Shown here: piece by piece, positions 14,577-61,081 of the stretch
Position numbering within the stretch: position 1 is the stretch's first letter
Layout: each line of letters begins with the position of its first letter
Source: Nymphaea colorata
Lineage: Eukaryota > Streptophyta > Magnoliopsida > Nymphaeales > Nymphaeaceae
Assembly (NCBI RefSeq): GCF_008831285.2
Contig: NC_045144.1
Location: forward strand, 5,914,575-5,978,574
Reading direction: 5' to 3'
Length of the DNA: 64,000 nucleotides
Notes under the pieces: generated by a model
What the model was told of the DNA's origin: nothing
The model's input: the letters and a program-made list of their open reading frames with translations, nothing else
Database searches by the model: none
Made by a program: the position numbers and the translations under genes

Positions 14577-14584
14577 GTCTCCAC
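14577..14584 (+). repeat. Left target-site duplication of the 14585-15361 element
   Basis: GTCTCCAC precedes the element and GTCTGCAC follows it at 15362-15369, identical at seven of eight positions. An 8-bp duplication is characteristic of hAT-superfamily insertion. Confidence 0.8.
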
Positions 14585-15361
14585 CAATGTTATAAAAGGC
14601 GTAGCGTATCGCGTATCGGTCGGGCTGACCTATATGCCGTATCGTAACGTATCGTAAACGTATCGTAAAATTAATTTTTTAATTTTAAAAAATATTTAAA
14701 AATAAAAAAAATAGACAAAAATTCTCAAAAATCTGAAAACAATGAACAAAAAATCAGAAATCAAGAAAAATAAAAAATGTATTCAAATATAAAAAAGATC
14801 ATCATACATAAGGAACATTCATGTGTATACTATCAACAACACATTCAAAAATAAGAAATCAAATATTCAAATTAACATAATAAGCATCTATCACAATTTT
14901 AAACTTGAAAATTTTATAAAATTTGAGGACTTAGAGTCTTAAGTCTTGGAGTTTTAGGACTTAGATTACATCAGAATTTTATAAGTTCAAACATACAGTT
15001 ATCATATTTCATGATTCAACGATGATATCTCCCAAATCGATGAATCATCGGTTAATTTTTATGAAAATACGCAAAATTTCTCCCTCCTATGTCTATTGGA
15101 GTCTTTAAATACAAGAAGAGAGAGAGGAAGGAGTGTTTAAACTTTTAAAAAATAAAGAATTTTATGTTTTCTCCCGTATCGTACGATACGGGGGTGTATC
15201 GCTCGTATCGTACGATACAGGCCCCGTATCGTACGATACGGCCGATACGGGTACGATACGCACGCGTATCGTGTATTGAACATGTATCGTATAGGTTTCT
15301 TCAACCTATACGATACATATCGTACGATACGCGTGCGTATCGTACGATACGGATAACATTG
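14585..15361 (+). mobile_element. Non-autonomous hAT-like element with CGTATCGTACGATACG array (copy 1)
   Basis: The element starts CAATGTTAT and ends ATAACATTG, giving 9-bp perfect terminal inverted repeats, and is flanked by 8-bp near-identical duplications (GTCTCCAC/GTCTGCAC). The right 190 bp (about 15172-15352) contains repeated copies of the 16-bp palindrome CGTATCGTACGATACG and an inner hairpin (AACCTATACGATAC with its complement GTATCGTATAGGTT). The left 80 bp holds a few half-sites (CGTATCG). The middle is AT-rich and non-coding. A second copy lies in opposite orientation at 46926-47637 with its own 8-bp duplication. hAT assignment is inferred from the duplication length; no transposase is encoded. 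Confidence 0.85.
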
Positions 15362-16066
15362 GTCTGCACTACCCAAAAAGGAAAAACAAAAAACCTCTGA
15401 AAAAAAGGTTTCGATACCTTAACCACGATGATGCAAAGGAAAACCCTCTACGTCAAGGTGGTTGATCCAAGGGAAACCCTCCTCCACGCAGAGGGAAACC
15501 CTCTGCATGCGGTTTTTTCCACAACGCGGAGGGTTTCTCCCTGTGTCGATGGGCTACATGGGAAAACACTCCGATGCAAACCATCAGAAATGAGAGAGAG
15601 AGAGAGAGAGAGAGTCGCCTCCATTTTTCCGGTATTCACTTGTATTTTTTCTTCTTTTTTTCTTTTTTTCACCTAAACCCCTCATGTTCCTGACACCTGC
15701 TTCAAGTCAAACTGATCGCATGGTAATCGTTGTGAAAGATACAGTTGCTATTCAAGGATATAATTCCACGAGCTTGAACGGAAAATCAAGACAGAGACAT
15801 TGTCATCCATGTAATTACTGCACTCCAGATAGACATTCCATTCGACATTCATCTGAAAAAGAGTGAAAGTCCTTAACCAATACAATAAGACAAGTTACTC
15901 CACGAAGCTCGAGAAACAACAGAACATACAGAATAGGGGTAGTATAGGCTACAGAAGGTTCAAGATTCATCAACATCTACAGAACTAGCAACAAAGTCAT
16001 ATGATCCTCTCAGAGTCAAGCAGCACTAACACATCAAAAATGCCACAAGGCATATGTTTCTTAAGT
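15362..16066. other. Region 3' of the FAX gene
   Basis: It contains a palindromic AGAGGGAAACCCTCT at about 15489 with related GGGAAACCCTC copies nearby (15470-15540), a (GA)n tract at 15593-15615, and likely 3' UTR of the minus-strand FAX gene just below 16067. No gene was seen. Confidence 0.5.
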
Positions 16067-17674: not shown

Positions 17675-20600
17675 CTGTTTAATTTTCCACTTAATGCTTT
17701 AGTCAATGTTGTATCCTATGATACAGAGGCATATCCTATGATGCATATTGTAGCTAGCTACAGGGGAAATTGATACAATACGCTCGTTTCTAGTTACAGG
17801 ACAATATGGGGGTATTGGAGACCTCTTTGTGCACTCTTACAAGTTGAATGAAGGGGGACCTTGTTCCTTTGAGGGAAACAAAAAAAAAGAAGGCTTGAAG
17901 GAAGATTTGAACTAGGAGATCAATTTTATGATTGAAGAAAGAGGGTTTTCCAGTTTCCTTCACAAAAGATATAAATTCTCTCACTTTCATCATAGATTTC
18001 TATTCTTTTGGAAGATTACTGTACATTTCTAGGCCATGTTTGTCCCCTCTGAATGCAACTGTAGCAAAAAAATGGGTAAATTTGAGTTCCATCCCAATTT
18101 GGAGCAAACAGGGATTAGTTTTTAAGACATTTTAGGGCAAAACCAGGGATCCCGATTCTGGAATCCAAATTCCTACCATAGGGGTGGAATGAGAGAGCAA
18201 GCATAAATAGTTTGGCCATTATTGCTTAGAGACTGGGCTTTTTGTTTACCGGTTTTTCTTCTCTTTAATTGGACAAAATCATATTTGAACATGATTTTGT
18301 TTGTTGAGATTTAGTTTGTGAATCTATTGAAAAGCTTTTTATGCTAACATTTGCAATGTATAGTACCCTGCTAGGGTTTCTCATGTGACACTGAAAACTA
18401 AGGCCCAAGTCTGTATGGTGGAGCTGCTTTCTATGATTATAAGCTCACCAGTTTTAACAAGCATTTTGACATGTTCATCCTTTGATCGATACATCCCCTT
18501 TTAATTTTTGTCAACTGCTGCCTCTTCAATGGTTGGAAATGGTTCCAACATCCCTAACCCAATCTCTAAAGTCCAAACACAGGAAAGGTATTCAGGCATC
18601 AGGTTTCCAGTTCATCAAACGCAGAATTCTGAATCCAGGAATCCCCATCTACAATTAGCAAACACAATGTCATTTTGGAAAATGGCATTGTGATTCCCAT
18701 TCCACCAATTCCAGAACCAAGTTTCTGAAATTAGCATTCCAGAAACTTGATTCTGGGGGAGCAAATAGTACCCTATCGTTTTTGAAGATCACCATAGATT
18801 TCTACTGTTTTGTGAAGATATGGCTTCAAAATTTCAAATAAACTTGCACGACGATGGTGCACAAGGGTGAGGAAAATGATCAGCTGAAAATTATTTGCAA
18901 GTACTTTAATTAGATGATGCATGATGAATAGATGATGTCTCATAACTTTCATTTTTTATTTGTATTGAAGACTTTCATGTCATGACATATATGACCTTAA
19001 ACTTATTTCTAATATGCTATTACGTATGACATTATGATTATGTTACATTAAATTGATGAATGTTATTCACTATAAGCCTATATCTATGTGTGAAGTTTTT
19101 TATGGATAATGTATTTCCTAGATTTTTTCTAATTTTTCATAATTTTCTCTATTTTTTGCTTATTTTGAATTTTTAACATAAAAAAAAATATGATTCCAAT
19201 TACGATACGTTACAGTAAGTATCTATTGCCCTAACCAATACAGGTTAAAACTTAAGAGTTAAGACATGCACTTCATAGTTCATAGCATTGGTTTTAGCTT
19301 TTGATTTTTGTATGTGCAATGTCTAATGCAGTTTTTGTTAGTTTGTTTTGACTCAACAACATTAACTATTGTATTCCAAACATGTCTAGTTCTATCTAAA
19401 TATTGTATAGCCCTTTGTCACAATATTTGACTTTTTTTTTTTTGCCACCCTAGGTGCCTAAGCCATTTCAAAGGTCTCCCATCTAGCAGCAGCACTTTTG
19501 CTAGGGATAATAATGAAAAGGATATACGCAAGAAGATGAGGTCCTGAGGATGAGTCTTCCCAAGCTTGTCTACAAGGGCAGAGCCAGGAGGCCAAGGGCC
19601 ATGGCCCCTCCTGAAATTTTAAAAAAAAAAAGGCTACATGTAAATATCTTGAAAATTTTCAACTTATCCCTTGTAAAAATTTTGGGAATTTGAATAGGCT
19701 CTGGTGGAAAATTTTTCAAAAGTTCTACTTTTTATTTTTTATACATATGGCCTTAGAGACCACTACCTTATATATCTTTACGTTTGCAATTGACGAGACC
19801 ATGCCAGCGTAGCATGCATGGAGACGCCCTGATATTTTAACAAGTATTTTGTCCATTATTTTTCCATTATGTGTGTAGATATATGAAGATTTCGATTAGA
19901 ATTCAATACATTTTACATGTGTTTTGTCCAAGTGGAAGGTATGCATGTATATATATGAAAATTTGGGATATGAATTCAGCTTCGCCATTCTTTTGCTTTG
20001 TCCAATGTTTCATGAACAAGCAGATTCATGTAATATGTTTTCAAAAGTGGTCCTTCTCTTGTATGGATAAACTTGTCTTTAGATGTTTGCATGATTGATA
20101 TTCATGCAAGTAATAGCCAACGAAAAGGAAAATTACTACTTAGATGAATTTAGGCATGCTAAGCAATGAGTACATGACAATTGTAAAACTTCCACCCAGA
20201 GAAGCTCATTGTTTGACAAACTTAATTGCTAGCATTTGATTGTTGACGAGCAAGAGTACCAATTTCAGATGGTGTTCCTTTCCAAAGATGAAATATCTAT
20301 TTTGCCATGCACATCTTGTGATGAGTATTAACCATTATTTTTGTTCATTTATGAGTCATTGCATGTGAACATGCATATTGACTGTGAGCACGTGATTATC
20401 TGTTGTTTATTGCACAGTTAATACTTCTGCTTTTGTCATATCAGAAAATATAAATTTCATCCCCGAGCTAAATGGCTCAAACTTCAAATTATAGAAAGAG
20501 GGATACATGGATCTGGATCTCGCACTTCAAGAGGAACGACTACCTGCTCTGACAAATGAAAGTACATTTAAGGTTAAGAGAAATTTTGAGAGGTGGGGAT

Positions 20601-22208: not shown

Positions 22209-24300
22209 TTTAGTTGGAGGAGGAAGCCGGCAAACATATAGCGCACATAGGAATTGAACGCATATGGAGGAGATTCACACGGACACAAACTTCTCGAAGA
22301 CAGCGACCGGCCGTTACCAGAACGGAGTATTCTCGCTCAATGGAGGAGGCCCTCCAGGCCACTCTTGGCGAGAGTGGACTATGGAACATGAACAGTCTTG
22401 TCCGCGGACAGTCTTGTCCGCACCATCCGAAATGTCGAGTGGACACTGCGGCGGCTCGACTCGTGTCCGAGCCCAGTCCGTCAACGTGGGCGTCCGGCTG
22501 GCAGGACAAGTTAGGTCAGCCGCCTGTTTATAATATTATTTTATTTAAAATATATATGTATTTTATTATAATTGAACATGTTTATATTGTATTATATTTT
22601 TTACATTATATAAATATATATACATACATATTATAATCGCAACGATGGTCAACAGCTCGGCCCCAGCCCAACTTATTATCAGCCGGCCCGCTACCCAGCC
22701 CTAGTTAAAATTGTCCTGTTGATGTAAACCATAGAACATGCCGCAATACTCGAAATTAAGCTTGGGCACCAGCTTGAATACTCGACGCGACTCGGGTCAG
22801 GGTCTCATCTCAAAAATTTGGTGTTGGGCTGTCCAACGCGGCTCGATAATTTATATTTAATAGCATTTTATTGTTTTTATATGTAATTATATATTTTTAA
22901 ATATTAATTGAGGCAAGCTCAAGTTTTGGGTAGTCAAGCCAAGCCTGGCCTAGGTTATCGGCTGTGGCCTTAGAAGTGTTTTTATTTCATTTTCATTAAG
23001 CCTGTTTGGATAGACAGAAAGCTTGAGAACCCTTTAATCTTCCACCACCATTCCTCTTTCTCCCACTTAACCAGCCAGAAAAAGGCCTTAGAAGTGATTT
23101 CTAGTGAGTCCTATTCTAAATTTGATAGAATCTTTACTTTTTAGTTTTTAGTTTGATATGTATAGCTGAAATCAGCCGGCTACCAAATGATAACGATCGA
23201 GAACATATTTAACAACTATCACTAAAAGCACTATGTGCATAAGCATGAGCAACTATTTATGATGGCCTTAAAGACGTTCATTATGTTTATAGTAACAAAC
23301 TTTAAATATTTAGTCGTCCAACAACGTTCAGCTGCCTGCCAATTTCAAAATGTTCTTTGTCTATAAGTTTTTTTGCTCTCTCTCTTTTTGATCTATGAAT
23401 TTTTTTTATGAACAATGAGTGCAAATCACATTGCAGTGTTCATGTGCAGTTTGTTTTGAGTGAATCTATTGCGGGGTGACTGTTTCTTCTCATTTGGGTT
23501 CCACCCTGGATTTTATTCAAAACTGGTGAGTGGATGGTTAGGTTGTCATTTTCTTCTTCGTTGTTTCTGGTGTAGTTGGTCGTTCGGTTGTTCGCTTGTC
23601 ACTTAGTTTGCCGTTTTTGGTCCTCAAGTCTATTGGACAATGGGACCCTATGTTCCTTACCCAAACAAATCAAACACCCCAAAAGAGAATCACTGGCCTG
23701 ATTAACCCCGGATAGACGGACAAGGACATCATTGTTCTCATCTTTCAAGATCACAAACTAAACGTCCTCTGTGTTCTCTTTCTATTGACAGGAACTTGTG
23801 TTCTAGAATTGAGGTGCACCATGGGATGAGAGGAGTCCCTTTGCTTATTCAAGCTTGGGCATAAAAATATGGGTTTGAGTGTACATATGGGTCATTTGAA
23901 TTTTAAGTTTCCAAATTGTCCATCAAGTTTAGGATGCACTTTTCTTATAATACCCAACATTCAATTTCGTTTATCTTTACAACATTCAATTTTGTTTATC
24001 TTTTTGGTTGTAGGTTTTTTTTTTTTTTTTTGGTGAAACACGAGCTTGTGGAACTGTTGAATCAACCAGTGCATGTGGTTCTCTACTCTTTTACTTGTCT
24101 GAGTGGTCTAATGTTGACAAACATCAACCATTGTTGTTGGCCATGTTAGATACCGTTAAGGAGTTTGTGTACCTCTTATTATATTTTTTCTTACTTGTGT
24201 AGTCAATAGAAGAACTGTACATAAGTGTTGTTTGTTGAATCCAAAAGCTAGTTTTGCCACTTAAGGGATGAACCTTAGAGGCCGTTTGGCATGAGAAACA
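22209..24300. other. FAX upstream region and repeats
   Basis: 22209-22510 is GC-rich and probably holds the FAX promoter; it contains a direct repeat around 22392-22421. 22520-22640 is very AT-rich. 22640-22960 has phrases such as CAGCCGGCCCG and CGACGCGACTCGGG that resemble GC-rich ends of degenerate DNA elements. No other gene is seen. Confidence 0.45.
22392..22421 (+). repeat. 14-bp direct repeat around a TGTCCGCGGACA palindrome
   Basis: ACAGTCTTGTCCGC occurs at 22392-22405 and again at 22408-22421, creating the perfect palindrome TGTCCGCGGACA at 22400-22411. It is about 185 bp upstream of the FAX start codon. It could be a regulatory site or a small duplication; the sequence alone does not decide. 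Confidence 0.6.
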
Positions 24301-29400: not shown

Positions 29401-31509
29401 TAGATCTGAATTGCCGTAAAAATTATTGAAATCATGTTTGAATAAGAGAGTATCATCTTTTGGAAAAAATTGGGGTGATAATACCCACCTCCTTCACCTT
29501 CTGCTCATCTCCAATCCATCTCCACTAAGTTGCAAGTTTGGAAGTTAGACACCTAACTGAACCGTTGGAGTATGAAGATCACTACTGAAATAAAAAAACA
29601 GTTTGTGACGACTTTTGTACTTTTAGATTGTAATTTTTGCTTCATTACAATTTTCATGCGACCTTGATTAAGGATTTGATTTGTTTCTGTTTTTGTGTGG
29701 TACATCTTTCTCAGCTATTGGATGCAAACGGTGGGAAGAGATTTCTGCACTACGAAGAACACCAAAAGAGGGAAAATGGTTTGTTGATTTTTGTGACTAT
29801 TTTTCACCACTGCTTGATGTTGTTTTGTTACATATTTTCGCTATTTTTGACTGTTTGTGCCATTGTCACTTTCACTTTTTTATTTTCACATTTTGTTTTT
29901 CATCCCATGCCATCAAACTAAGAAAGAAGTTTTCAAAAACTTCTTTCAATGTCATCACACACACAACGAAATTGGAAGGAGCACCAAATTTTCCATTCCA
30001 CTTTTCCTGGAAAGATATTGCTAGAGACTTCGTTCCATTCTCAGGTTTCCAAACAATCAAACGCTACCTCGGAAATAGTGAATAGAATTACCATGGAAAC
30101 TTCGCCTCATAGATGAAAGTTTCAAATATTTGAAGAGAATTAGATGGATTTGAAATTAGACCCTCTTGGTTATTGCTCAAAGCACACTTAACCAGTGATA
30201 TCTTCTCCATTGTAGCTCCAAATTGGGAAAAATATGAAACATCACTCCAAGACACATAAAACATCATAATCTTGGGCTCATATAGTAAAAATGTAGATGA
30301 ATGCATGCATTTAGTGACCTAAAACATAATGCATTTCATGAATAATGTGCTGTGATTTAATTTCTGATTAGTCATTTATATTTGACAATCTTAACAAAAT
30401 GCAAGAAGATCGATCAACATATATCCAAAACTTCTTGCATTTGATAATCTTAACAAAAAAATACATTGATCCACAACAGAAACCAAAAAATTGATGGGTA
30501 CCCATTGGCATCCATGACTTGCCCCTACCTAGCCCACTAAATTAGTGGGTTGGACTTAAGGTTGGGCATTGGGCCGGGCCGGCAATGCCCGTCTCAAAGC
30601 CCGGCAATAGAAACGGGCCGGCCCGAAGCCCGACCCGTTTCTAGATGGGCCGGGCCGGGCTTACGTAATATCGGGCCTCAGGCTGCAGTTTATGCCCGAG
30701 GCCCGGCCCGGCCCGATTGTTAATGAGCCAGGCGGGTTGGGCCGGGCTTTGAGACGGGCTCGAGAACTATGCTGCAAACAAAAAAATTAAAGCCAATACC
30801 AACGCTGCTCATTTGGTTAGCTTCAGCTGATTGCAATTTGCAGGTCTGTACCTGGTAGGCTGGTGAGAACCAGATTTTCAGTTTAATTTTTATGGATGCT
30901 ACTAAATATGTAATCACAATACGTTTACCACAATGATCACTGATCAGAGGTACTGCTGCCAAAAGATGCATGACAATTACCTTTGCAGTCAAAAGCCCAA
31001 GTCCCAACGTGACCCTAAGCATAGCAAAGCACAGTAAATTAAAGAAAAGAGAAGGAAGAAGAAGAAAGCCATGTTCCTAAGCATACAAAACAATACTACT
31101 AAAACCATTAATGAACTCTTTAACACTATGAGACCAACTATTTATCCAGTGGAAGATGCTCTGTCTACATCACAACCACATGAACCTACAAAAAAATTGA
31201 AGCAGACACAAACCGGAACCCCATTACAAGACCTTGGATTTTAAACCTTCGTTTGACTCAAAGCCCAAATGTTCATTTGCAGTGAAGGTTAGAAGCGACA
31301 TATCATTGTTCTAAGCACCAAAACAATACAATAACAAAAAGGAAACATACTGAAATAATTTAGAAAATGGCAACAAAGTTGGAAGAACAATATAGGAAAA
31401 TGAGAGGACAGGAATGAGTATGCTATCTAACTAGAATTCTGAAACAGAAGGAGAAAAACATGATAATCACCCAACAATGAACAAGTAGTAATAGAAGCAT
31501 TCAACAAAG

Positions 31510-31682
31510 CATTCAACGGTTCAATGTGATTTAACAAGCAGTAATAGAAATAAAAAGCTTCAAATATAAAAGCAGTCAACGGTTCAATGTTATTTAACAA
31601 GCAGTAATAGAAAGCATTCAACGGTTCAATGTGATTTAACAAGCAGTAATAAAAGCATTCAACGGTTCAATGTGATTTAACA
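31510..31682 (+). repeat. About 41-bp tandem repeat inside the hAT element
   Basis: Four units of CATTCAACGGTTCAATGTGA followed by TTTAACAAGCAGTAATA, the second with a small insertion before it and CAGTCAACGG variation. It lies 3' of the transposase reading frame. There are no spacers, so it is not a CRISPR-like array. Confidence 0.9.
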
Positions 31683-31907
31683 ATTAGTGGGCCCGCTTAC
31701 ATAAGTTTCACTAACAAATCTGAATAACCTTCTAAGTTGGAAGAACAAATGAAAATCACTTAATTAGTGGCCTGGTTACATATGTTTCAGTTTTCACTAA
31801 CAAATCTGAATAACCCTTTAACTCTAAGGGGTCTATAGACAAATGAAAATCACTTAATCAGTGACATATTTACATGTTTCACTAACAAATCTGAACAACC
31901 CTCTATG
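31683..31907 (+). repeat. About 80-95-bp degenerate tandem repeat inside the hAT element
   Basis: The phrase TTTCACTAACAAATCTGAA occurs three times, each preceded by TTAGTGG or CAGTGAC and TTACAT. Two of the units are also preceded by CAAATGAAAATCACTTAAT. Confidence 0.8.
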
Positions 31908-32369
31908 TCCACCATGATTGCAGTCCTCCTCTTTGTCCACCATGATTGCAATCCTGCTGCTCCTGCACTTGCAATGGCCCAATGACAAACTTGGATTTCA
32001 CCTACAAGAGCAACGGTAGGAAACACAAGTAAAAATTAATTCAATAAAACCTACACATATAAAAGGCTAAGTGGATTAATATAACTAGATGAACTCACAA
32101 ACAAATATAATGCTTTAATTAAAAAATTATTCTTGATGGGCATGCATGAGTGGAGCTAGCTATGTTATATGGACATGCCAATTCGAAATATGAATGAAAT
32201 GTTATAACATTTTACCACAACGAAATATGAATCATGCTAATTCGTCACCAGAAGAGTCATCCTTATCTTCAAAACTACAAAAGACACATCACCACAAGCA
32301 AACCACAATGTTAGTATATCATAAAAAACAAAAGGAATGAGCAAAATTTAACATTAAACAATGAACATC

Positions 32370-34400
32370 TTACATTTTGCATGAGTTATCTTCATCACGA
32401 ATCCAACTCTGTGTACAAAGTAGTGCTTCAACAGTTTCAAGAGTGGTTGAACATCGATAATCATTAATGATTCTTCCAGCTGTACTGAATGAAGACTCAG
32501 ATGCAACCGTAGATATAGGGATTGCCAATATATCTCGAGCCATTTTGGATAAAACTCTATATTTACTTTCATTTGCCTTCCACCAATTTAATATACAGAA
32601 GTTTTCATTGGGACGAGGTCGTTCTATTGGATCAGTTAAATATGCTTCCAGATCTGTGCGAGGTACTTGACGAGATACAGAACTCATGTAATATGTGAAG
32701 GAGGCATCTCTTGAAAAAGCTGAAGGTTTCTCTTCTTCAAATTCCACATTGGTGTTGTTTGCATTCTCATTTTCTTCATCATATGTTGCATACACATTTT
32801 TGTACTAAGCATACAATTCATGAAGACTTCTCTCTACTTTTTCATATTGTACCATTGCATCACGTTCATTTAAATTCTCAAGCACATACTTCAAATATCC
32901 CAATTTGGACCTGGGATCTAAGACAAATGCAATTGCAAAGAGGACATTGTAGTTATTTTTACAATATTTGTCAAATTTTTCTTGCATTTTGATGGCTAAT
33001 GATCTTATATAATCATTATCTGCCACACTATGTGTATGCAAATGGTTGCATACCTTTTGTATTTCTTAAAAAACCACATTAGCTGTTACATTTTTAGTAG
33101 CAGAGAAGATATTTGCAACATTATAGAATAATTTCAAAAATTGGCACAAGGTAGTTGCATAAGACCATTCATCCTCAGAAGGTAAATTTATATAATTGGG
33201 ATCCACAGAAGCCAAATGTTGAAATGCATCTTTGTAAAACAATGCATCTCTCAACATAATATATGTAGAGTTCCATCGAGTTGGAACATCATAGGTTAAT
33301 TTCTTTGTTCCAATCAAGCCCACTGTTCTTATACAATTCTTAAAGGAATGTAACCGCTTCGGTGATCCATTTACATATTTAACACTTTCACAAACTTTTG
33401 AATTTGTATCATGCAGATCCTGCATACCATCTTGAACCATAAGATTTAGAATATGTGCACCACAACGAATATGCAAATGTTGCCCTTGCATTGGAATAAG
33501 ATGTCTTCTTCCTAAGTTCCTTTTCAATGTAGTTATTGCACTATCATTCGTCGAACAATTGTTAGCAGTAATAGAAAACAACTTTGACTAAATGTTTCAT
33601 TTAGAGATACAATCTAATAAAGCCTCACACAAACTATTTGCATTATGTGGCAGAGGTATATATACAAAAATGAACATATGAGCATGAAACTTCCAATATC
33701 TATCAACATATTGTCCTGTCACGCATAGATAACTCAATGTCTGCTGTGAAGCCCACATATCAAATGTCAATGAAACTCGTTGGGTAGAATCATTTATAAA
33801 TCCTTCAAGTCGGGCTTTCTCAATCTTGTACATTGACATAATTTCTCTTTTCATAGTTCTTCTAGAAAATGGAACGAACCTATGATTGCAAGCTTGAAGA
33901 AGTTTATTATGATATTTATATTCTACCAAATTGAACGAAAGCTCATGTGCTATTACACACTTTGACATCAACTTTCTTATAGACTCCATGTCAAATTTTT
34001 GTATAGATACAGAAGCGGCACCAGAATCATTAACTGCAAGAGCTAAAGTTCTTTGTTTTCCTTCATTGATTTGCCTACTTAAGCAAGATTTTATATGTCG
34101 ACTTAAATGGCTAGTTCCATGACCACTGCTTGCTTTCAATCGTTCTCCACAATGTTTGCACTTTGCAAAATCTTCTCCTTTATATGTAACCAATATAAAA
34201 TCAATCAATACTTTTGAGGTCTTTTTTTTCTTGGAGACAGCTTCTCTCTCGGTAGATGATTCCAATGATTCCATATTAGAAGTTGGACAATATTCTTTAT
34301 CAGAGATACCGTGCGACATAACTGACATAAGTTGAAATGACACAGGTAAATAACCAAAACAATAAAAAGGACCATTAAGATGCACAATGCCTAATTTCAT
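32370..34400 (-). pseudogene. hAT transposase (BED zinc finger, RICESLEEPER/DAYSLEEPER-like), four in-frame stops
   Basis: The protein reads in one single frame from 34400 to 32370 (677 codons), broken only by stops at 33597 (TGA), 33588 (TAG), 33066 (TAA) and 32805 (TAG). The likely start is the Met at 34274 (MESLESSTE). Next is a BED-type finger (CKHC then GTSHLSRHIKSC), then VSLTFDMWASQ with the first catalytic Asp. FSITANNCSTND stands where the family has a DNA-type motif, so the second catalytic Asp appears to be Asn. Further on are YDVPTRWNSTYIML, LDPRSKL and the hAT C-terminal dimerisation block ILAIPISTVASESSFSTAGR with the catalytic Glu. No frameshift is needed anywhere, so decay is by substitution only. 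Given the stops and the lost Asp, it is not functional. Confidence 0.9.
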
Positions 34401-35483
34401 TAATATAGAAATATCTTAATCCGAATTACATGAAACCCTCAAAAACTTGAAAAAACTTCATGCTTTATAAGAACAAGTAACCATAACATCTTCATGCTTT
34501 AGAAGAACAATTAACCATAACATATATGATGACAAAGATGATCCAGATGCATGTGCAATGGTTAATAATATCATCAAGAGTTATGAGAAGAAATTCAGTT
34601 GAGATGAATCATGAGTTTATCCACATTAGAGAATAGGATTCATTGTCAGCTTGTCACACAAATTCAGTCGTGTATCTTCTTCGTGATCAACCTTGTACAT
34701 CAAAATGAAGCTCAAAAGAACATATGTTATTGCTTCACAAGAATGTTCAGCAAATGCAGAACAGAACATTACTTTTCCTTTATGCTTTTTCTAAACCTTA
34801 CTTTTGGCTCAGGATTGCAAATACGTGCACAGTCTTTCCTGGTTTCAAGCAACATGTACGTTTGATTGTTGAAAAATTGATTTAAAACATTCTGTTATCA
34901 GTGAGTCAAAGTTCCATGAGCAGATTGACAGATTCTATTCAAATTGAAAGGAAAAAGTATCCAAATGCCTAATTTTTGTGTTATTTTGACACAAATAATA
35001 GTTTTCTACCAGTATTTGGTTTTCTAAAGTTTAACAAAATGAGAATACATTAGATAGCATTTGTCAATAAAAACACCTTAGATAATTTGTAAACTAGATG
35101 TGTAGAATTAAAAAGAAAAAAAGCATTCAAATAGCGGAGTCAATGGCACATCAAGTTCTTTTGTCAGTTATCAAGTGTAAGAAAATTCTCTTTGTCAGAT
35201 ACGAAGACTTACTTTAGAATAACAGCAGGAAACCCAACTTTGTTTGTGCCAAGGGAAGAGACCAAGATGAAATGCTTGACCTTTGATGCAGTTGCTGCAC
35301 ATTGATGCAGAAGTGTTAGTTTTTATAGAGAAGAATCAAAATTGCTATTACTTCAACAAATGTAACATAAAATTACCCTGAACATAATCTGGAATAAGTT
35401 GCACATGCATTAGTACTGACTTGGGTGCAGAAAAAGATAGAAAATATGTGTATGGGCATGTACACAGAGACACTTGCATATAT

Positions 35484-35543
35484 ACACATACAGGAAAGTT
35501 ATGAGCTTCTAGGACACATACAGGAAAGCTATGAGCTTCTAAG
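35484..35543 (+). repeat. 30-bp tandem duplication
   Basis: Two adjacent units of ACACATACAGGAAAG followed by TATGAGCTTCTAGG (35484-35513 and 35514-35543) differ at about two to three positions. Confidence 0.85.
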
Positions 35544-35749
35544 GATATCACAATTAATGGCTCATGAGAATTGTAAAACAAACAAGTAAAAATTTAATAG
35601 CTTCGAGTGAAATCCCAAAAGTTAGCATTGTTACATAGAATCCACAGGCACAATTCGTGACATTGTTATTTCAGCAACTACAGCTTTAATGCAATTGAAA
35701 AGAGAAAAGGAGGAACCGCTCTCGACCTTCCAAATGAAGGGGGGGGTGG

Positions 35750-36170
35750 GGGACAACAGATGGGCATCGGCGATGACCCAGACCGACTGGTTCTATTGTT
35801 CAATTGACAACAGAAGTTACAAAATAAGACAATATAACAAGAACTGAAAAAAAGACACTCACAAAACAGGGGAATAAGAGTTGAGACGGACAGAGAGAAA
35901 GGGGAAAAGTGGTGCACCTACACGAAGGACGGACAGGGGGACAACAGATGGGCGACGGCAACGGCGATGACCCAGACCGACTGGGATGACGGGAGGATAA
36001 AGCCGATGGGCGACGGGGACGGCAACGATCGACTGGGAGAACCGGAAAAGGCAGCGGATGGGCGACGACGACGGCGACGGTGATGACCAACTGGGAGGAC
36101 CGGTCGCCGGAGAAGGCAGCCGATGGCGATGGTGACGACCGGAGGAGCAGCCGATGGGCGACGAGGAGGC
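35750..36170 (+). repeat. Degenerate GC-rich repeat at the 5' end of the hAT element
   Basis: The phrase GATGGGCGACG (or GATGGGCATCG) followed by GACCCAGACCGACTGG-like sequence recurs at about 35759, 35947, 36006, 36057 and 36153 with variable spacing. The strong GC content contrasts with the AT-rich flanks. It lies upstream of the minus-strand transposase, so it may be its promoter or 5' leader. Open frames in it are rich in Pro/Ser/Arg and are artefacts of the repeat. Confidence 0.6.
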
Positions 36171-36476
36171 AATCTCGGATTCTCGAGTCTCGACGGGAAG
36201 AAAGTCGAAAGAGAAACAAAACAGCTGAGTAAACCCTAACTAAACTAAGTTCATTTTTATTAAACCCTAACTAAGTTCATTAAAAAAAAAAAAAGGGCTT
36301 CGCGGGCCGCCGGCGTTCAAAGCGGCTGGCCCAAGCCCGACCCGTTAGTTACCGGGCCGGGCCAAGCCCGGTAACTAATGGGCCGAAAAGTAAATTTGCA
36401 AGGCCCGGGCCCGAGTCGGGCTGAGTACCGGGTACCTGGCGGCGGCCCGGCCCGTTGCCCAGGCTTAGTTTGGACT

Positions 36477-46199: not shown

Positions 46200-49100
46200 T
46201 GTTACAACTATAGTATGCATTTATGCAAAATTACATGCAATAAGAAAGAAAAAAAGTGAAAATTTAGGTTGCCAATAAAAATACCAGGCTATTGCTCACT
46301 AGGTGATGTTCTAGGCATTTGCAAAGGGAAGTTGCTGAGGACAGCAAGCCTAGGTGATCAGCCAAACCTGACAGCCTAAGCAGGTAGTATCTGAGTTCCA
46401 ATTTTGACAACTTATTGGAAGGCATTTCGAAGAGCTTACAAGGAGAAGAGCATAGCACCACAAAATCTAGAATGCATAAAAGTAAATATGTTTTGTTAAG
46501 CAAATGCTTGATGAAATCCCTATGTACATGGGATTAGAACTTGGACTGGTCCCAATAGCTATTAGACCTTGAACTGGTCCCAATAGCTATCTGTTGGAAC
46601 TAGCCCCAGTGCTATTTTGTTATTCAATCAATGACCAAACTGCCATCACCTCGGTCAACAGAAAAAGTAAACAAGAAGTAAAACAAAAAAAGAAAAAAGA
46701 AAATTTAGGACAGAGACAAATATATGTGTGGATGGTCATGCATGTGTGGGATTTCTTATATGTATTTCATATATAAATATGTATAAAATGTATATACATA
46801 TTTATCACGTACATTTGACATGAATATAGTCAGTACACTTAGATACATATACACACATATACCTGTATTTTAGCAGCATTATCGTTCATTTATTATGGCA
46901 CTAATCTATGTCACATAGGTACGGGCAATGTTATCCGTATCGTACGATACGCGTATCGTATAGGTCTAAAAAACCTATACGATACACTTATAATACACGA
47001 TACGCTCGTGTATCGTAAGCGTATCGCCCGTATCGTATGATACAAGCGATACACCCCCGTATCGTACGATACGGGGGAAAACACAAAATTTTTTAATTTT
47101 TAAAGTTTAAACACTCCTCCCTCTCTTTCTTCTTGTATTTAAAGACTCCAAAAGACGTGGGAGGGAGAGATTTTGCCCATTTTCATAAAAATAACCGAGG
47201 ATTCATCGATTTGGGGATATATTGTCGTTGAATCATGAAAGTTGATAACGATATGTTTTGAACTTATGAAATGTGATGTATTCTAAGTTCTAAGACTCCA
47301 AGTCCTAAGACTCGAAGTCCTAAGTTTCTATAAAATTTTCACGTTTAAAATTGTGATGGATGCTTATTATGTTATTTTGAATCTCTGATTTCTTATTTTT
47401 CAATGTGTTGTCGATACACATGAATGTTCCTTATGTATGATGATCTTTTTGATATTTGAAAACATTTTTCTTGATTTCTGATTTTTTGTTTGTTTTTTCA
47501 AATTTTTAATGATTTTCTCTATTTTTTTCTGATTTTTTAATATTTTTCAATAAAAAAATTATTTTTACGATACGTTACGATACAACGTATAGGTTGGCCT
47601 GGCCGATATGCGATACGCTACGCCAGTGGTAACATTGGGTACGGGTACTGGTTCGCACTATTTTCAAAAAGCTTGGGTATGAGGGTATGAATGTTATATA
47701 TATATATAACATAAAATAAGAATTCAAACAAAATAACACATTCACGATTCAAAATTTATAGTTTCTAAAGAAGAAACTATTGAACAAAATATGAAAACGC
47801 AGCTATATATCTGTTTCCTAAGTGTAAATGGTGTAAAAGAAGTAAAGAACATAACTGAAATCCTAAATTTTGGATAGGAAAGGACTCAGTCAACTTTGAC
47901 CTAGTCCTAAATTGGACGGATACGGTCCTGGGTACGTTGACCGTATCTGGTACTGTTTGACCAGTACCCAAGATGTACCCGGGTCAGTACCAGTACCAGT
48001 ACCGGTGTCGTGCCTAACCGGTACGGGTATGCTGCCTTTACAGCAGTATCCATGTGACAAAGGCACTAATCTATGATAAACCGAGTTTTAATAGTAAGTC
48101 TATGATTAACAATGTTAAAAAGCTAATATTAAGAAAATTTAGCTTCAGAAGTCGGAACAACTGTAGTAACTTGCTGTACACATAACCCTATGAAGTTTTT
48201 CCTTACCTAATAGCAAAGCGGGTCTGGCATTTCTTGTTTGATCTCACATTATTTATTATTTTCAATATTCCTAAGCCCCCTTCCCCACTTTTTGGGGATA
48301 CTTATAGAGGTGAGAAAGAAACTGGATGGGTACTAAACTGGTGCAGGTAGGTTGGTTCGCAAAAAGTTTCAACCTTGGTTGCCTACATTATGGAGGCATT
48401 TGTCAACTGGTCTTAACTTATTCCTAACTTGGCACTCATTTTGACATTTTGTATTTGCTTTTGTTATGTGGATAATTTGGGCATTATGTGTAATTAGGAA
48501 AATAGCTTTCATTTGAATATGCTGAACACATCAAAAAGTTGGAATCTGAAAGGAATAAAATATTAGCTTTAAGTATTGAATGTAAGTTTCTAGATCGATG
48601 GATGAGTGCAAGATTGCAAGTCTTAAAAGAACTTTAGTTCTATCATTTTGTTATTCTATTTCAGAAGTACAGGAGGAAATCCTTCAAAAGTTTCCCTTTA
48701 AAAAACTCTTTTCCTAATTAGGATATTCTTCACAATTTTTTAATAGATTAGCGATGATTTTGACTTTATTAATTTAAGATTTTGTTAAAAAGTAATGCCC
48801 ATGTGCCTATACTGAAGGAAAAAAAAACAAAAATGGCCTTGTAAGCTAGGGAGAAGTAATATCCCAATGATGAGGAAGCTAAATCTGCTCCATGGATGCA
48901 GGCAATAGCCCTCATACTGTGGCGGACTTAAAAATTTAATGTAGGTAAGCCATTAAGGTTGTTCAAGAAAAAGAATACAAATGTGGTTTGGAAATTTCCT
49001 CCCTCTTCTTCTCTTGCTGCCATATTCAGAATGAGCACACAAAATAAGTGGCAAATTTGTGTAAGTACCATGTATCAACTATATGTTGTACATTTACAAT

Positions 49101-52100
49101 GTTGATCCCCAATTGAGCTTGGTTTTGGATCAGTATTCATGAAGCAGATCTTAAGCAGCCTGTTATTGAAAAGCAACTTGCTAAGATATTATCAGTTGAA
49201 TAATGCTAGTGACCATTTTTGAATTGCAGTTCATGGTGAATGCCTGCTGGGAGTGATTAGAGTATGTTACAACATTGCGCTTAACAGGTAGCGACCTGTG
49301 ACTTGTAGAGCAGGAAATTGTGATGAAGAATATTCACATATTCATATCTAATTCTTATCTTGGATGTATAGCAAGAGCCCTATAAACCAGGCAACATCAA
49401 AGGCCATGCTGACTCAAATGATTAACATCATTTTTAGAAGAATGGAGAATGATCAGGTATAGGATCTCACTTCTTCCATTTTGGACATGTATTTGCCCGT
49501 TGATTTCAATTTTCACATCATGGAATGGACAAACCTTCATGAGGTCCCTTTATGTGCTAGACTCCCACAAATGATCCTGTAACAGTGGAAGAAAAAAGTG
49601 AAGTTGCTCTCCCTGCATCAGACAATTTAGAACATGCAGTTGGTTCTTCACCTGAGGGAACACCCATGGACAAGCAAGATGATGAAAAAAAGACTTTGGG
49701 GGATGCACTTTCCATGGATCATGAGAGAGATGCACCTCTTGCAATTGTTGAAGAGCTTCAACATCTTGCTGGTGGTGCAGATATCAAGGTATCAAATGTC
49801 TTATTTATATCCAGATCTTGAGGGTGCATTCTTCTTTTATTTGCATTTGTCAAAACAATTGGTCTGAAAATTCATGTTTTTGTAGGGTTTGGAGGCTGTT
49901 CTTGACAAGGCAGTTCAACTTGAGGATGGGAAAAGAGTATCTCGGTATGGGAAAGTGTTATAGAAAGTAATTTGTTTGGTGTTTCTATGTGATTCTTAAC
50001 CTGCATAATCAGACATTTCAATCTGAAAAATGTAACCAATAGACTTTCTAGAAAGTTCAGCTGCATAATAGCTTGTTAAGGCAATCTGGTGCTTGTCTTA
50101 GAGATTGCATGCTCGCGGTGCTAAAATTCCTCCTTATTGATTCTTCAAACCAAACATTGCATATGTTTCAGTGGGATTGAACTTGAGAGCATGAGTGTGG
50201 GGCAACATGATGCTTTGCTGTTGTTCCGAACACTTTGCAAGGTAACCTTGTGGAGTTGTATGTTCTGTTTTCCTCATTCAGTTAAATGTTCTTGGTATTC
50301 AGACATCAACGCTTCTAATGTTTTCAGATGAGTATGAAAGAAGATAATGATGAAGTTTCTATCAAGACAAGATTGCTGTCTCTTGAACTTTTACAGGTTT
50401 GGTTTTGCTATATACCACTTCAGTACTTCTTTTGTTATTTGGATCCATAAATAGATTATGATTGTAGCACCAACTGAGGTTTCCTTCTGATCCACATTTG
50501 CAGAGCTTATTAGAAGGGGTGAGCATGTCTTTTACCAGGAACTTTCATTTTATTGATTCAGTTAAAGCATATCTTTCCTATGCTTTGTTGCGGGCATCTG
50601 TTTCTCCATCACCAGCCGTCTTTCAGGTTGTTATTTTAAAGATCTTTCTCGTCTCTTAATTTTGTATTTATTTCAAGAATTTTAAGCTGTCCAGTTGTTT
50701 TACAAGTTATTGCATGCTTCTATAGCAGCAAATTTTTCTAGACCTTTCTTTTTCTTTTCTATCTGTCAACTGAGTGAACATGACTAATTCTTTCGTTTTC
50801 TCCACCTGAGCAGCATGCAACTGGAATTTTCATGGTGCTTTTGCTGCGGTTTAGGGAAAGTTTAAAGGTACACTGAAATTTTGCAAGATTACCTGATGTT
50901 TTGTCATTTTGAAGTTCCTGCATTTTTTAAAATTAAATTGTCATGGCATTTGCAGGGAGAGGTAGGAGTCTTCTTCCCGCTGATCATACTACGGTCACTG
51001 GACAATGCTGAGAGTTCCACTAGTCAAAGGACAAGTGTTCTACGGTGAGCAATTTTGTTTACACTTTACAGTATGAAGTCTGTACCATAATTTGTTTTGT
51101 TGCTTAACCAACTATCTAGTAAAAAATGCACCTAGACACTGCCTGCATGCTGGTGGCAGCCTAAATGCCTGGTCCGAGGCACCTAGGTGCCTGAAACAAA
51201 AAATTATTGTTTTTACAAATTTATTGATAAAAAATTTAATCCTTTGTGTTTTAACTTCTGGTATATTGTTTGATGTGGAGTATTTCGGAACCCCACTTTT
51301 ATTGTTTCCTGTTTTTCTTCTTCCTTTTTTCTCCTTTTCCCATATTTTCTGTCGATAGGATCGAGTTGGCCCCTGTGCCCACCATGCTGCCTGCACTTTC
51401 TGCCAGGGGGGGGGGGGGTTGCCTAGTCCCTCCTGGCACCTTCAACTATATAGTTAACCAATTAAAATTTCATAGTAGAGTGAACCTTCTTGATTGTGAA
51501 AGCGGTACCTGACAAGGTTGTGACTTGTCAGACAGTTAGTCTACAATTTCAGTTTTTTGATCTGTCACTGGTACTGATTCAAACAGGCCAATAGATTCTT
51601 GTGCAGATCTCCATCCTTGATTTTAAAACGTGGTTCTATAAACCTTATGGTTTTTTTGCTTTGTCTCATTCTTTTCTTTCACTTAGTATCATCACCTTGA
51701 CCAATTTGTGCTGCAGAATGCTTGAGAAAGTATGCAGGGATCCTCAAATGCTTGCTGATATATTTGTCAACTATGACTGTGATCTTGACTCACCTAACCT
51801 TTTTGAGCGAATGGTAACATCATCCTTTTTGGTTTCTTATTATTTAAAGTACATTATAACTTCAAAGTTCAATTATCTGATGCAGCTAACATCTGATCTT
51901 TTGGATGCCATTGATGCATGCTTTACTTGTTGCTTTGACTCAAGACAGGTTCATGCTCTTTCTAGGATAGGGCAAGGGTCTCCAAGTACCGAGCCAAATT
52001 CAGTTAATTTATCTCAAAACACATCCATCAAAGCTTTATCTTTGCAGGTTATACATTTATTTTATTATGTTCTCAAAATAAAAAACCAAATATCTGCATC

Positions 52101-53812
52101 CTCTTCTCTAATATTGGACTTAAAAGAAAAGACAGATAATTTTTTTTTATACTTCCAGTGTCTTGTGAGTGTATTAAAATCACTTGTTGACTGGGAGAGA
52201 TCACAACGGGAATCTGCTGAACTGGCTAACATTGATCATGGCTCTGGAGAGGATCCGTTGGCAAGGGAAGCTGGTGATGGTGATGTAAAACATAAGGATG
52301 ACTCGGTAAATCAATTTGAAAAGGCCAAGGCACATAAGTCAACAATGGAAGCCGCTATTGCTGAGGTAATAGCTGTTATTTCTGCTATGGTGATGCAAAG
52401 TTAACTTGTTTGTGTGCCCTTCTGTTAACGTTGTTAATTTCATGTTGTTGCTGTACAGAGAATGTGTAACATATATTATATTACAATCTACAAGCTTATA
52501 TGCGCATGTATAGGCAGATGGGTGTAATTCTTTGTGAGTTATTCTTGTTCTTGCTGACACTTGTTATATAGGGACATCCCTTTTTTGGTGGCACACCTGC
52601 ATCGGTTCAATGCAGGTGCCAAATCTGCATCACACGATGTTATGAAAGTCGCTAGGTACAGCCTAGGCGACAGGACATGCCTAGGCGTACTTAGCTGACA
52701 ATTTACATTAATGAAGCTATTGATTAGCTTGTATTAAGTTATATAATATGACAACAGTCCATAACAGTCAATGTTATATTATATGATTTACCATTTATGT
52801 TGTATAATGAAGACAAAATGCGAAGTTATAATTTAGAACTTTGTAAGTTGTAACATACTGACAGTCACACAAATTATATGACAGAGAAATAGAGAATATC
52901 TGAATATGTATGCATAATAGATTCATTGTATATAAATATTAAATATATATATATATTAGATAATATATAATGCAACAGACTAAGAGTTTAGTACATAATC
53001 CAATAAAACAGAGTTACAGAATATAATCAAACTGAGTTACAATGTAAAACATATGATCAAAAAATTATCTAAAGAGTAAACAGCCTATAAATATAAATAT
53101 AAACATAATAAGCAAAACTAACTTAATAAAAAAATATGTAAACGGATTTACAGAATATACATATAAACAATATAAGCAATAACGGTCAATTGTTGAAGGT
53201 TGAAATAGAATATAAAGTAAAAAAAAATATTGGTAAACTGTAAATTGTTACACGTGATTACAAGGTATAAATATAAAGAGAGAGCACTGAATTTTAAGGT
53301 TTATCATTTATGAATGTCGATTGGAACAAAATACACTAACTAGAAAGCAAGGCAGTGAGGCACAGATCAGAACAGAGCAATTAGTCAAAGAAAGATACAA
53401 TCCACTCCTGATTTAGAAAACATGCATCACAACAGTCTCCAGCACCCATTTAATCTTTGTTAAAATCTTTAAGAGCCCTGTTACTCTTGAACTTCTACAC
53501 ATAGATGTAAAATTACAAGTTAATCTCATTAGACGAACTATAATAGTGCAATTGAATTGAAGGACGTAGATTTCGGTCATATTGTGTACTTGTGATTACA
53601 ATCATTCAAATGAATCTCTATAGATGTAAATACATGTTAATCTCATTAGACAAACTATAATAAATTAATAATGCAAATAAGGGACCCAAATCTCGTTCGC
53701 ATCACAATGAACTTGTGATTATAATCAATTAAATGAATCTCTATTGATGTAAATTTAAGTTAATCTCATTAGATAAATTACAATTGTGCAAACGAAGGAC
53801 CGAATAATCTAG

Positions 53813-56800: not shown

Positions 56801-59800
56801 ACGTGATTAGCACCCTTGTGTTGCTGCTGCTGTCGTGAAGTTGCTGAAAGCTGCTGCCGTTGAAGCTTATCACGTAGCTGAAATGGTGAATCAGATTAGA
56901 CCTTGCTGCAAAATCAAATCTAACTCCAGTGCAGCCGTGGAAGACGTTTGGGCCAAAGAATGTCGGATCTGCTAGGGCAGTCTAATTTGTTTAGCCGTGT
57001 GGTGCTTGGTGGATTCTCACAAGCAAAGGTATGTCGTGTGGGCAGGTTCAGTCTTTTTCCTGCATCGTTGAAGTGAGACAAGTTTGAAATTGTATGGAGT
57101 AGGCAGATTTCTGTTTTGTCTCTGCATCGTTGAAGTGAGAGAGGTTTTCTGTACTGTCAAACTTGTGCTTGTTTGCTACCTATTATCAACATCTGAAAGT
57201 GCTGCCTGCTATCCACGTCTGAAAACAGTCTGCCAATTTGTTTTGTGTTTGTGTTCAACCTAATCCTTAAGTGGATCTCGTGGAGGTTATTGTTGCTGTA
57301 ATCAGATTTTTATGTTGACCGTGTGGGGCAGAGTCAATCTACTGCTTGTGGATATAATTTGACGTGAGGAGCAGAATGATCTACAGCTCGTGGATATGAA
57401 ATCTATAAGTTGAGGTCTCATTAGTTGTGGACTGCTGCTAATCGTTGTGTTGCAGCCATCGGCTGAAATTATTTTGTTGAGTTGCTGCCTGAGTTAGTGC
57501 CTATGTTGCTGCCCGTTTTTAGTGAATTTTTGAGTTGATGATTAGAGCCATAAGTGTGTTCCAGATTCTTCTATGCTGTCGTGCCTTGGTTGAAGTTAAC
57601 TACTGCACCTTATACATACATATTGTAAGTACAATCCTGGTTGGAATTTTACTATGGCTGATGGTAATGTGTTTGAGGGTTCCAATGACTACAAGATGGC
57701 TGAAAATTTCTTCTCATATGCCTGCACGACTGTGATAGACTCTTCATTCTCTGTTGGTGCTCCTACCGATGACCCAGATATGATGTGGATGATAGATTCT
57801 GGCGCCTCCAGGCACTGTTGTAATCAACCACATATTTTTTCATCATTAGTCAGGTTCTCTACACCACAGCATGTCAGACTGGCAGATGGCAAACTATCTC
57901 CTGTATTGGGCAGCGGTGATATTTATCTCCCACATTTAGGCACTATTACCCACGTGCTCTATGCTCTACAGTTTTCTGTTAATTTGTTATCTGTTAAGCA
58001 GCTTGCTATTGATTTAAAGTATAGAGTCATTTTTGACCCTGGTACATGTTCTTTTTAGGATTTACTAACTGGAAAGATGATTGGTGGCAGCCATGAACGT
58101 GAGGGTCTCTATTTCTTGTCTGTCCCAGTAAATGTTGCTACCTCTTCATTCTCCTCAAAGCCTTTTCTTTTTCAGTGGCATCTCAGACTGGGTCATCCTT
58201 CAGTGTCAAAACTTCGTCGCATGCTTCCAGGTATTACTATATCAGAGTCCTTCTTATGTGATGCTTGCCAATTAGGCAAATATACACGGAGTAGCTTTCC
58301 TTCGAGTCAAGAACCATCTAGTCAAAGTCCATTTGATCTCCTTTATGTGGATGTATGGGGTCCTAGTCGGGTTCCTTTTCACTCGCGTTTTCGGTATTAT
58401 CTTGTTTTGGTTGATGATTTTACTCGAGTCAGTTGGGTATTCTTGTTACGGGAAAGATCCGAAGTCATATATATTCTTCCTAAATTTGTCAAGGAAATAA
58501 AAACTCAATTTGGTTTCATTGTCAAAAATATTCGCACTGATAATGCTCTTGAATTCAAATCTTCCGTTCTACTTCAATTTTATGCCAATCATGGAATTCG
58601 GCCTCAATATACTTGTCCACACACATCCCAACAAAATGGTGTTGCCGAACGCAAACATCGACAACTCCTAAATGTGGCCCGTACCCTCATGCTGCATTCT
58701 CACATGCCTGCATACTTTTGGGGGTATGCTATTCTTACTGCATGTTACCTCATTAACAGATTACCCTCGTCAGCCATCCAAGAACGTATTCCCATTCAAC
58801 TTTTATATCCAAATCGACTACTATTTCATATACCTCCCAAAGTATTTGGATGCACTTGCTTTGCACACATCCTAGGCCCGGACAAAAACAAACTTGCTGC
58901 TCAAGCCATCAAATGTGTATTTATTGGATACTCTGCCAATAAAAAAGGATATAAGTGCTTTGATCCCCAAACCAAGAAAGAGATTATCAGTGCGGATGTT
59001 ACATTCTTTGAGTCTCGTCCTTATTTTTCTCCTTCGAGTCCTCCTCTGTCTGAGATGCCTATACCTGTTCCTCTTCCCATTCCACCAGTGTCCCTTGAGT
59101 CCTTACCGCCATCTCAACCTATGTCACATGAACGTTTCTTTGATCCTTCATTGGTTTACACTCGTCGTCTTGGTCCTTCTTCCAACCACCTACCAACGTC
59201 TTCTCAAGAGGTAAACTCCACTGATAAGACTGATTCATGTTTAAATGATGATCACACTGCAGATGATCTCCCCATTGCTATTCGCAAGGGCAAGCGACAA
59301 TGCACGCTACATCCGATTTCTAATTCTGTCTCTACTGACCATTTGAGTACAAGTTTGGTGCAGTTTGATGGAGCTTTGTCTAACTACATCATCCCGTCTT
59401 CTCACCATCAAGTCTTGTTAGATTCAAGGTGGCGGCAAGCCATGCAGGAGGAAATGGATGCTCTTATCTCTCGGGAGACTTGGGATTTGGTGGATCCACC
59501 GATGCACTGTGATGTGGTTGGCTCCAAATGGGTGTTCACCATCAAGTATCATTCTGATGGTTCAGTTGAACGGTTTAAGGCACGTCTTGTTGCTAAAGGA
59601 TATACACAGACTTATGGCGTTGACTTCTTTGAGACTTTTTCGCTCGTGGCTCGGTTGGGCACTATTCGACTGATTATATCTCTTGCTGTCCAGCGAGAGT
59701 GGCCTCTATTTCAGTTGGATGTGAAAATGCTTTTCTGTATAGAGACCTGGCTGAAACTGTCTATATGCAGCAACCACCTGGTTTTGAGCGACAGGGGGAG

Positions 59801-61081
59801 TGTTCCAAGGTATGCAAATTAAAGAAGGCTATTTATGGACTTAAACAGAGTCCTCGTGCATGGTTCCATAAGTTAACTGATGTTTTATCTAAGTGTGGAT
59901 TTCAACGATCTCAGCTTGATCACTCATTGTTTATCAAGCGAGGCACATCTGGTATAGTGATATTGATTGTATATGTGGATGATATTGTTCTCACTGGAGA
60001 AAATAATCAAGAAATAGCTCAGACAAAGGAGTTTTTACAACAACACTTAGTCACAAAAGACCTTGGACAACTCTGTTATTTTCTTGGTATTGAGGTGGCT
60101 CGTAGTAGTAAAGGAGTTGTAGTGTCTCAAAGAAAATATGCTCTTGATCTTCTGCAGGAAAGAAGTTTATTGGGAGCTAAACCTGCCACACTTCCCATGA
60201 ATAGCCGAATTCATATACATGATGATGAATCAGAGTCTTTTGACTCTAGATCTTACAGATCTCTTATAGGGAAACTGTTGTATTTGACGGTCACTCGCCC
60301 CGACATTAGCTTTGCTGTGAATAAGCTAAGTCAATTCATGGAAAAGCCTCGAAAGGTTCATTGAGATGCTGCTCTAATGATTGTCAGATACTTGAAATCA
60401 GCCCCGGGAAAGAGGTTATGGTTTAAAAAGGGAGAAGGTGTTGACATCGAAGCGTATAGTGATGCTGATTATGCAGGATCTATAGATGACAGGAAATCTA
60501 CCACAGGTTTTTGTGTCTTTGTGGGAGGCAATCTTATTTCTTGGAGGAGCAAGAAGCAGAATGTGGTGACTCGATCTAGTGCTGAGTCGGAATATAGGGC
60601 TATGGCTCAAACTGCGGCTGAAATGTTATGGGTCAGATCATTACTTTTAGAGTTGAGTGTTTCAGTGAATCTCCCAATGAAGATGTATTGTGACAACAAG
60701 GCGGCTACCTATATTGCTAACAATCCTGTTTTTCATGAAAGGACAAAACATATTGAAGTGGATTGCCACTATGTTCGGGATTTAGTTCAAGAAGGAATTA
60801 TTAGCACTATTCATGTCTCCTCTGAAGATCAGGCAGCTGATATGTTCACCAAGGCTCTTCCCATAGGCGATTTCCTGAGAGGTTGTAACAAGCTGAGCAT
60901 GATTGATATCTATGCTCCAGCTTGAGGGGGAGTGTTAAAGAGTGTTTCTGCAATATTAGAAAGTTGAATAGTAGTTCTTTAAATATTTTCTTATATTTAG
61001 TGGTCTGATTTTGTAATTGTTATGTTGCCAACCCTAATCTCTTTTAATATGAGATTAGAGTCACGTGAATAAGCAAGAAAG

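Follow-up and report, generated by a model that had tools for sequence, protein, structure and literature searches.

Most hAT transposons carry sets of subterminal repeats near their ends, and the housefly element Hermes illustrates how such repeats can be used: a quasi-palindrome made up of its first two subterminal repeats lies within bp 11–27 of the left end and is bound cooperatively by two BED domains (PMC10368747). The same source reports that the left end as a whole engages three BED domains and the right end none, an asymmetry regarded by its authors as an important requirement for activity, and proposes that the left end is located by a transposase which, through multimerization, has gathered a sufficient number of BED domains (PMC10368747). 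Cooperative binding by the transposase has also been described for the subterminal AAACGG repeats of Ac (PMC3260210), and the Herves transposase binds its ends asymmetrically (PMC3143072).

Here, we describe a short repeated element in a 64 kb stretch of Nymphaea colorata DNA, referred to in its entirety as the window. With a probability of roughly 0.8, we regard it as a short non-autonomous DNA transposon of the hAT type, in which a transposase with BED zinc fingers, acting in trans, would find paired binding sites in an array of palindromes.

Results

Two insertions of one family

An earlier note on this DNA had proposed that positions 14577–15369 represent a bounded insertion with inverted ends and an 8-bp duplication, and both the limits and the description are correct. 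The interval comprises an element of 777 bp (copy 1, 14585–15361, on the minus strand if the array end is taken as the start) with CAATGTTAT inverted ends, together with two 8-bp flanks, GTCTCCAC on the left (14577–14584) and GTCTGCAC on the right (15362–15369). A second copy of 712 bp (copy 2, 46926–47637, plus strand) lies in the opposite orientation, with the ends CAATGTTAT / CAATGTTAC and with GGTACGGG as the target-site duplication on both its left (46918–46925) and its right (47638–47645). Scored in both copies, as the note had suggested, the inverted ends match at 9/9 positions in copy 1 and 8/9 in copy 2, and the target duplications at 7/8 and 8/8, respectively.

When the whole window was scanned for stretches of 80 bp to 6 kb with CANNG ends, an inverted repeat of 9 bp and a duplication of 8 bp (at most one mismatch in each), copies 1 and 2 were the only two candidates. 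When the same scan was applied to 20 first-order Markov controls, 13 contained no candidate and seven contained one; the ends and the duplication alone are therefore weak evidence for a single copy, and it is the shared interior and array that make the case for the element strong. Read from the array end, the two copies are identical at 609 of 711 ungapped aligned columns (72 of the 482 interior columns differ), while a comparison of 400 bp of flanking sequence on each side detected nothing but one 13-bp match (E 0.46). Since the copies align and their flanks are unrelated, they are two independent insertions of one family and not a duplicated segment. The mismatches between them consist of 52 transitions and 50 transversions, and only 18 of these 102 fall within a CpG of either copy, so that CpG decay explains only part of their divergence.

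A further stretch, at 19121–19241 on the plus strand, is probably a decayed remnant of the family's far half; it has no array and its ends are unclear. It was detected by nhmmer using a profile built from both copies (E 5e-6, with a high composition bias of 28.8; no match up to E 10 when the window was reversed as a control), and by blastn against copy 2 with the low-complexity filter off (E 3.5e-15). The family is thus represented in the 64 kb window by two good copies and one probable fragment.

Short inverted ends starting with CANNG are the rule among hAT elements; such ends, 8-bp target duplications and subterminal repeats at both ends are all present here. The target preference nTnnnnAn reported for Hermes is matched by GTCTCCAC and not by GGTACGGG, a comparison involving two sites only. 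Neither copy contains a stop-to-stop frame of at least 150 codons. A MITE in the loose sense would be short, devoid of coding capacity and present in many copies; against this, the window offers lengths of 777 and 712 bp, no such frame, and the two copies and probable fragment in 64 kb. Together with the CAATG ends and the 8-bp duplications at two independent sites, the lack of a long frame makes a hAT-like non-autonomous element, as previously suggested, the best reading of the sequence, albeit one that falls short of proof since no transposase of the element's own family was found.

The repeat-like block that surrounds copy 2 (46897–48075) abounds in GGTAC/GTACC words, and a direct repeat of 14 bp, GGCACTAATCTATG, marks its two limits without mismatch (46897–46910 and 48062–48075). 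Elsewhere, the window carries a DnaJ/zuotin-type gene and, at 57600–60361, a polyprotein of the Ty1-copia type (with Pol_BBD, integrase and RVT_2 domains) that is located between pieces of a Sec7/BIG-type gene (51595–52401 and 61904–62581), perhaps within an intron. Taken with the degenerate hAT element described below, this gene content would suggest a plant.

Architecture of the two ends

The array of copy 1 (15173–15352, minus strand) contains five copies of the palindromic 16-mer CGTATCGTACGATACG, at 15175, 15204, 15225, 15316 and 15336, of which three are perfect and two carry one CpG transition each. That of copy 2 (46936–47077, plus strand) contains three, at 46936, 47029 and 47058, the second of them with two CpG transitions, in addition to a hairpin. 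With up to two mismatches allowed, the 16-mer occurs eight times in the 64 kb, five times at 15175–15351, three times at 46936–47073 and nowhere else; the expectation from dinucleotide shuffling is 0.00, with 0/100 shuffles reaching eight. In the three imperfect 16-mers the changes are exclusively C-to-T or G-to-A at CpG. Each palindrome is a back-to-back pair of one half-site, approximately CGTATCG, and the half-site GTATCGTA is found 26 times in the window (0.59 expected), 25 times in the two copies and once in the fragment.

In both copies, counting from the array end, the inverted end occupies bp 1–9 and the first palindrome bp 11–26. These are followed in copy 1 by a palindrome at bp 31–46, the hairpin, single half-sites and further palindromes at bp 122, 143 and 172, and in copy 2 by the hairpin and palindromes at bp 104 and 133. 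Array length therefore varies between the copies, that of copy 2 being devoid of an 18-bp and a 21-bp piece found in copy 1. At the far end, same-direction TATCG half-sites start 23, 30, 56, 66 and 77 bp from the tip, counted inwards, in copy 1 (14585–14668, minus strand); the first four positions are common to copy 2 (47566–47637, plus strand), while that at 77 bp occurs only in copy 1. A palindrome cluster at one end facing half-sites at the other, as the earlier note had described it, is thus confirmed.

The second hairpin mentioned in that note is likewise real. Formed by GTATCGTATAGGT...ACCTATACGATAC, it has a 13-bp stem with seven bases between the arms in both copies, and in copy 1 it lies at 15284–15316 on the minus strand (arms GTATCGTATAGGTT / AACCTATACGATAC), where the half-site continues into TATAGGT. 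The loop, read from the array end, is TGAAGAA in copy 1 and CTAAAAA in copy 2.

The observed/expected ratio of CpG is 2.59 in the array of copy 1 and 2.65 in that of copy 2, compared with 0.52 in the window; for the last 100 bp the values are 3.36 and 2.48, and for the interiors 0.58 and 0.89. Single-strand folding of the arrays with DNA parameters gave z scores of −12.95 and −9.88, with 0/200 shuffles equalling either. Of five helical periods tried for the phasing of half-sites, a period of 10 gave R values of 0.75 and 0.84 in copy 1 and 0.50 and 0.57 in copy 2, and a period of 10.5 gave 0.23, 0.11, 0.44 and 0.14.

Conservation of the half-sites

Conservation was counted on a single MAFFT alignment of the two copies, from which gapped columns were dropped. 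Within the array, half-site columns mismatch at 1/71 positions and spacers at 14/70 when the motif is defined on copy 1, and at 0/66 and 15/75, respectively, when it is defined on copy 2; under either definition, only 2/141 circular shifts of the mask, including the unshifted one, perform as well. The contrast at the far end is weaker: half-sites defined on copy 1 mismatch at 3/28 positions compared with 11/42 for the rest (17/70 shifts are as low), and those defined on copy 2 at 0/18 compared with 14/52 (3/70 shifts). CpG retention did not differ significantly between motif regions and interior (23/34 versus 3/9, p 0.12). The contrast between half-sites and spacers supports constraint on the half-sites, which a comparison of only two copies may suggest but not prove.

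Search for an autonomous partner

The earlier note had proposed a search for an autonomous relative with the same ends. Pfam recognized no transposase associated with such ends in the 64 kb window, either in its 18 closed stop-to-stop frames that reach 150 codons or in two shorter pieces; frames below 150 codons were scanned only for these two pieces, which belong to a degenerate hAT gene, and a badly broken second transposase could thus be missed. The degenerate gene, the sole hAT transposase recognized among the scanned frames, lies in pieces separated by stops at 32373–34415 on the minus strand, with a zf-BED domain at 33600–34415 (2.4e-6), a hAT-like RNase-H domain at 32808–33065 (1.4e-19) and a Dimer_Tnp_hAT domain at 32373–32804 (3.7e-30). 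The element that contains it spans approximately 30557–36467 (about 5.9 kb), with the ends TAAGGTTGGGCA / TAAGCCTGGGCA and an 8-bp-type duplication, GTTGGACT / GTTTGGACT, both identified by eye, and its outer 200 bp or so contain 11 and 9 GGCC words, compared with 0.42 per 200 bp in the window. With different ends and a different repeat word, it was rejected as the autonomous partner; it represents a different hAT family in broken form and shows that this genome has hosted hAT elements of the BED type. At 31480–31690 it includes a unit with CAACGGTTCAATGTGATTTAACAAGCAGTAATAGAA that is imperfectly repeated in tandem, and a sequence resembling the end of this GC-rich hAT family, TAGGGCTGGGTAGCGGGCCGG, is found at 22702 on the minus strand, possibly another old hAT end.

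Searches beyond the window

Neither the pattern of paired 16-mers nor a 28-base interior word matched any viral contig; the bare 16-mer occurred in three viral stretches, once in each and without an array, and these occurrences were taken as chance. A pair pattern was also absent from the genome contigs and copy 1 from the plasmids, but these collections are prokaryotic or viral, so that the zeros say little. The same applies to the absence of the exact 16-mer from the text of 5.39 million papers, since transposon families of this kind are usually deposited rather than printed. Words related to the 16-mer led to no transposon paper as judged by title, and a literature text search for plant non-autonomous hAT elements with CAATG terminal inverted repeats and a target-site duplication found none.

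Discussion

Of the three functions that the earlier note had offered for the palindromes, namely transposase-binding sites, hairpins feeding small-RNA production and targets of a host DNA-binding protein, the first fits best because of the position, pairing and conservation of the sites and the presence of half-sites at the other end; the other two are less supported. Paired sites for a BED-type hAT transposase would be the simplest account of a perfect palindrome at bp 11–26, of the array behind it and of the half-sites at the far end. The mobilizing transposase would be made elsewhere and act in trans on the element, and the N-terminal BED zinc fingers of this multimeric protein would bind both half-sites of each palindrome cooperatively. 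The end with the dense array would capture the transposase first, as proposed for the left end of Hermes, and the far end with its single, one-direction half-sites would be joined second, after which cut and paste would leave the 8-bp duplication. That same note had considered an asymmetric cluster of palindromes to be unusual, a view that is not supported by the accounts of Hermes and Herves, in which asymmetric subterminal arrangement or binding is reported (PMC10368747; PMC3143072); indeed, an asymmetric layout is to be expected by analogy with Hermes, where one end is bound by BED domains and the other is not (PMC10368747).

It is unlikely that the array acts mainly at the RNA level, with read-through transcripts folding into hairpins that are diced into small RNAs silencing the family. 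Both arrays do fold far better than their shuffles, the 13-bp stem has been kept while its loop changed, and plant transposons have been described as a source of microRNA genes (PMC3086885). However, any cluster of palindromes folds well, so that folding does not discriminate between the two readings, and the two copies have arrays of unequal length with different predicted folds, a divergence that constraint on an RNA precursor would disfavour. The single half-sites at fixed distances in the far end would also need a separate explanation, and a search of the window for Rfam families yielded no match at the gathering score. Small-RNA production from the array is accordingly possible but not indicated. 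That the array instead binds a host protein, either a domesticated transposase or a transcription factor, and that the element has been spreading regulatory sites, is highly improbable: a short conserved word in many CpG-rich copies (2.59 and 2.65 versus 0.52 in the window) would suit such a role, but it has no specific support, and the fixed distances of the outer sites from the tips in both copies suit transposition better than a later use.

The assignment to hAT can be questioned in turn, as an 8-bp duplication alone is not decisive and no transposase of the element's own family was found in the window. Short ends of the CAATG type are nevertheless the usual hAT picture and match those of the element. 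Sets of subterminal repeats near the ends, as most hAT transposons have according to PMC10368747, likewise argue against a different superfamily with duplications of this length, for instance P, and we consider such an origin very unlikely.

A hAT-type transposon with transposase-binding palindromes would be an ordinary representative of a well known class of element, and its family may still lack a name. A bolder and rather doubtful proposal is that it represents an unnamed hAT lineage in which the single Hermes-like BED-binding palindrome was expanded into an array, at one end only; with each 16-bp site containing four CpG, DNA methylation by the host could turn transposase capture on or off, and the length of the array could determine mobility. 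Although the element is otherwise unexceptional as a transposon remnant, its clean and testable layout of putative binding sites is of modest interest. Should they indeed bind transposase, this layout would offer a test in a plant of the Hermes model, in which the transposase first locates the end that carries paired BED sites, and variants in array length would be natural material for relating site number and CpG methylation to mobility.

The degenerate hAT element in the same window resembles the element described here in its 8-bp-type duplication and in having repeated words near both ends, carries zf-BED and hAT domains, and differs in its ends and in its GGCC-rich repeat word. The inverted repeats of maize Ac/Ds also differ in sequence from the ends found here. 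They are 11 bp long and the AAACGG word is non-palindromic, but the presence of several copies of a short subterminal word under cooperative transposase binding is similar, as is the observation that short Ds forms share with Ac little beyond the ends and some of the repeats (PMC3260210). Herves, from mosquito, likewise has a short subterminal motif at both ends and asymmetric binding; its motif is CG/AATTCAT, and the available text of the report contains no form of 'palindrom' and no mention of a palindrome array (PMC3143072). The likeness to Hermes comprises a quasi-palindrome next to the inverted end (within bp 11–27; the palindrome here occupies bp 11–26), further subterminal repeats, ends that are arranged differently, with right-end repeats 1–5 running in one direction, and an 8-bp duplication (PMC10368747). 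Hermes is, however, autonomous and about 3 kb in length, its binding word is given as AAGT/AAGC instead of CGTATCG, and of its two palindromes one is close to the tip and the other lies far in the interior, whereas the element presented here carries three to five perfect or near-perfect palindromes.
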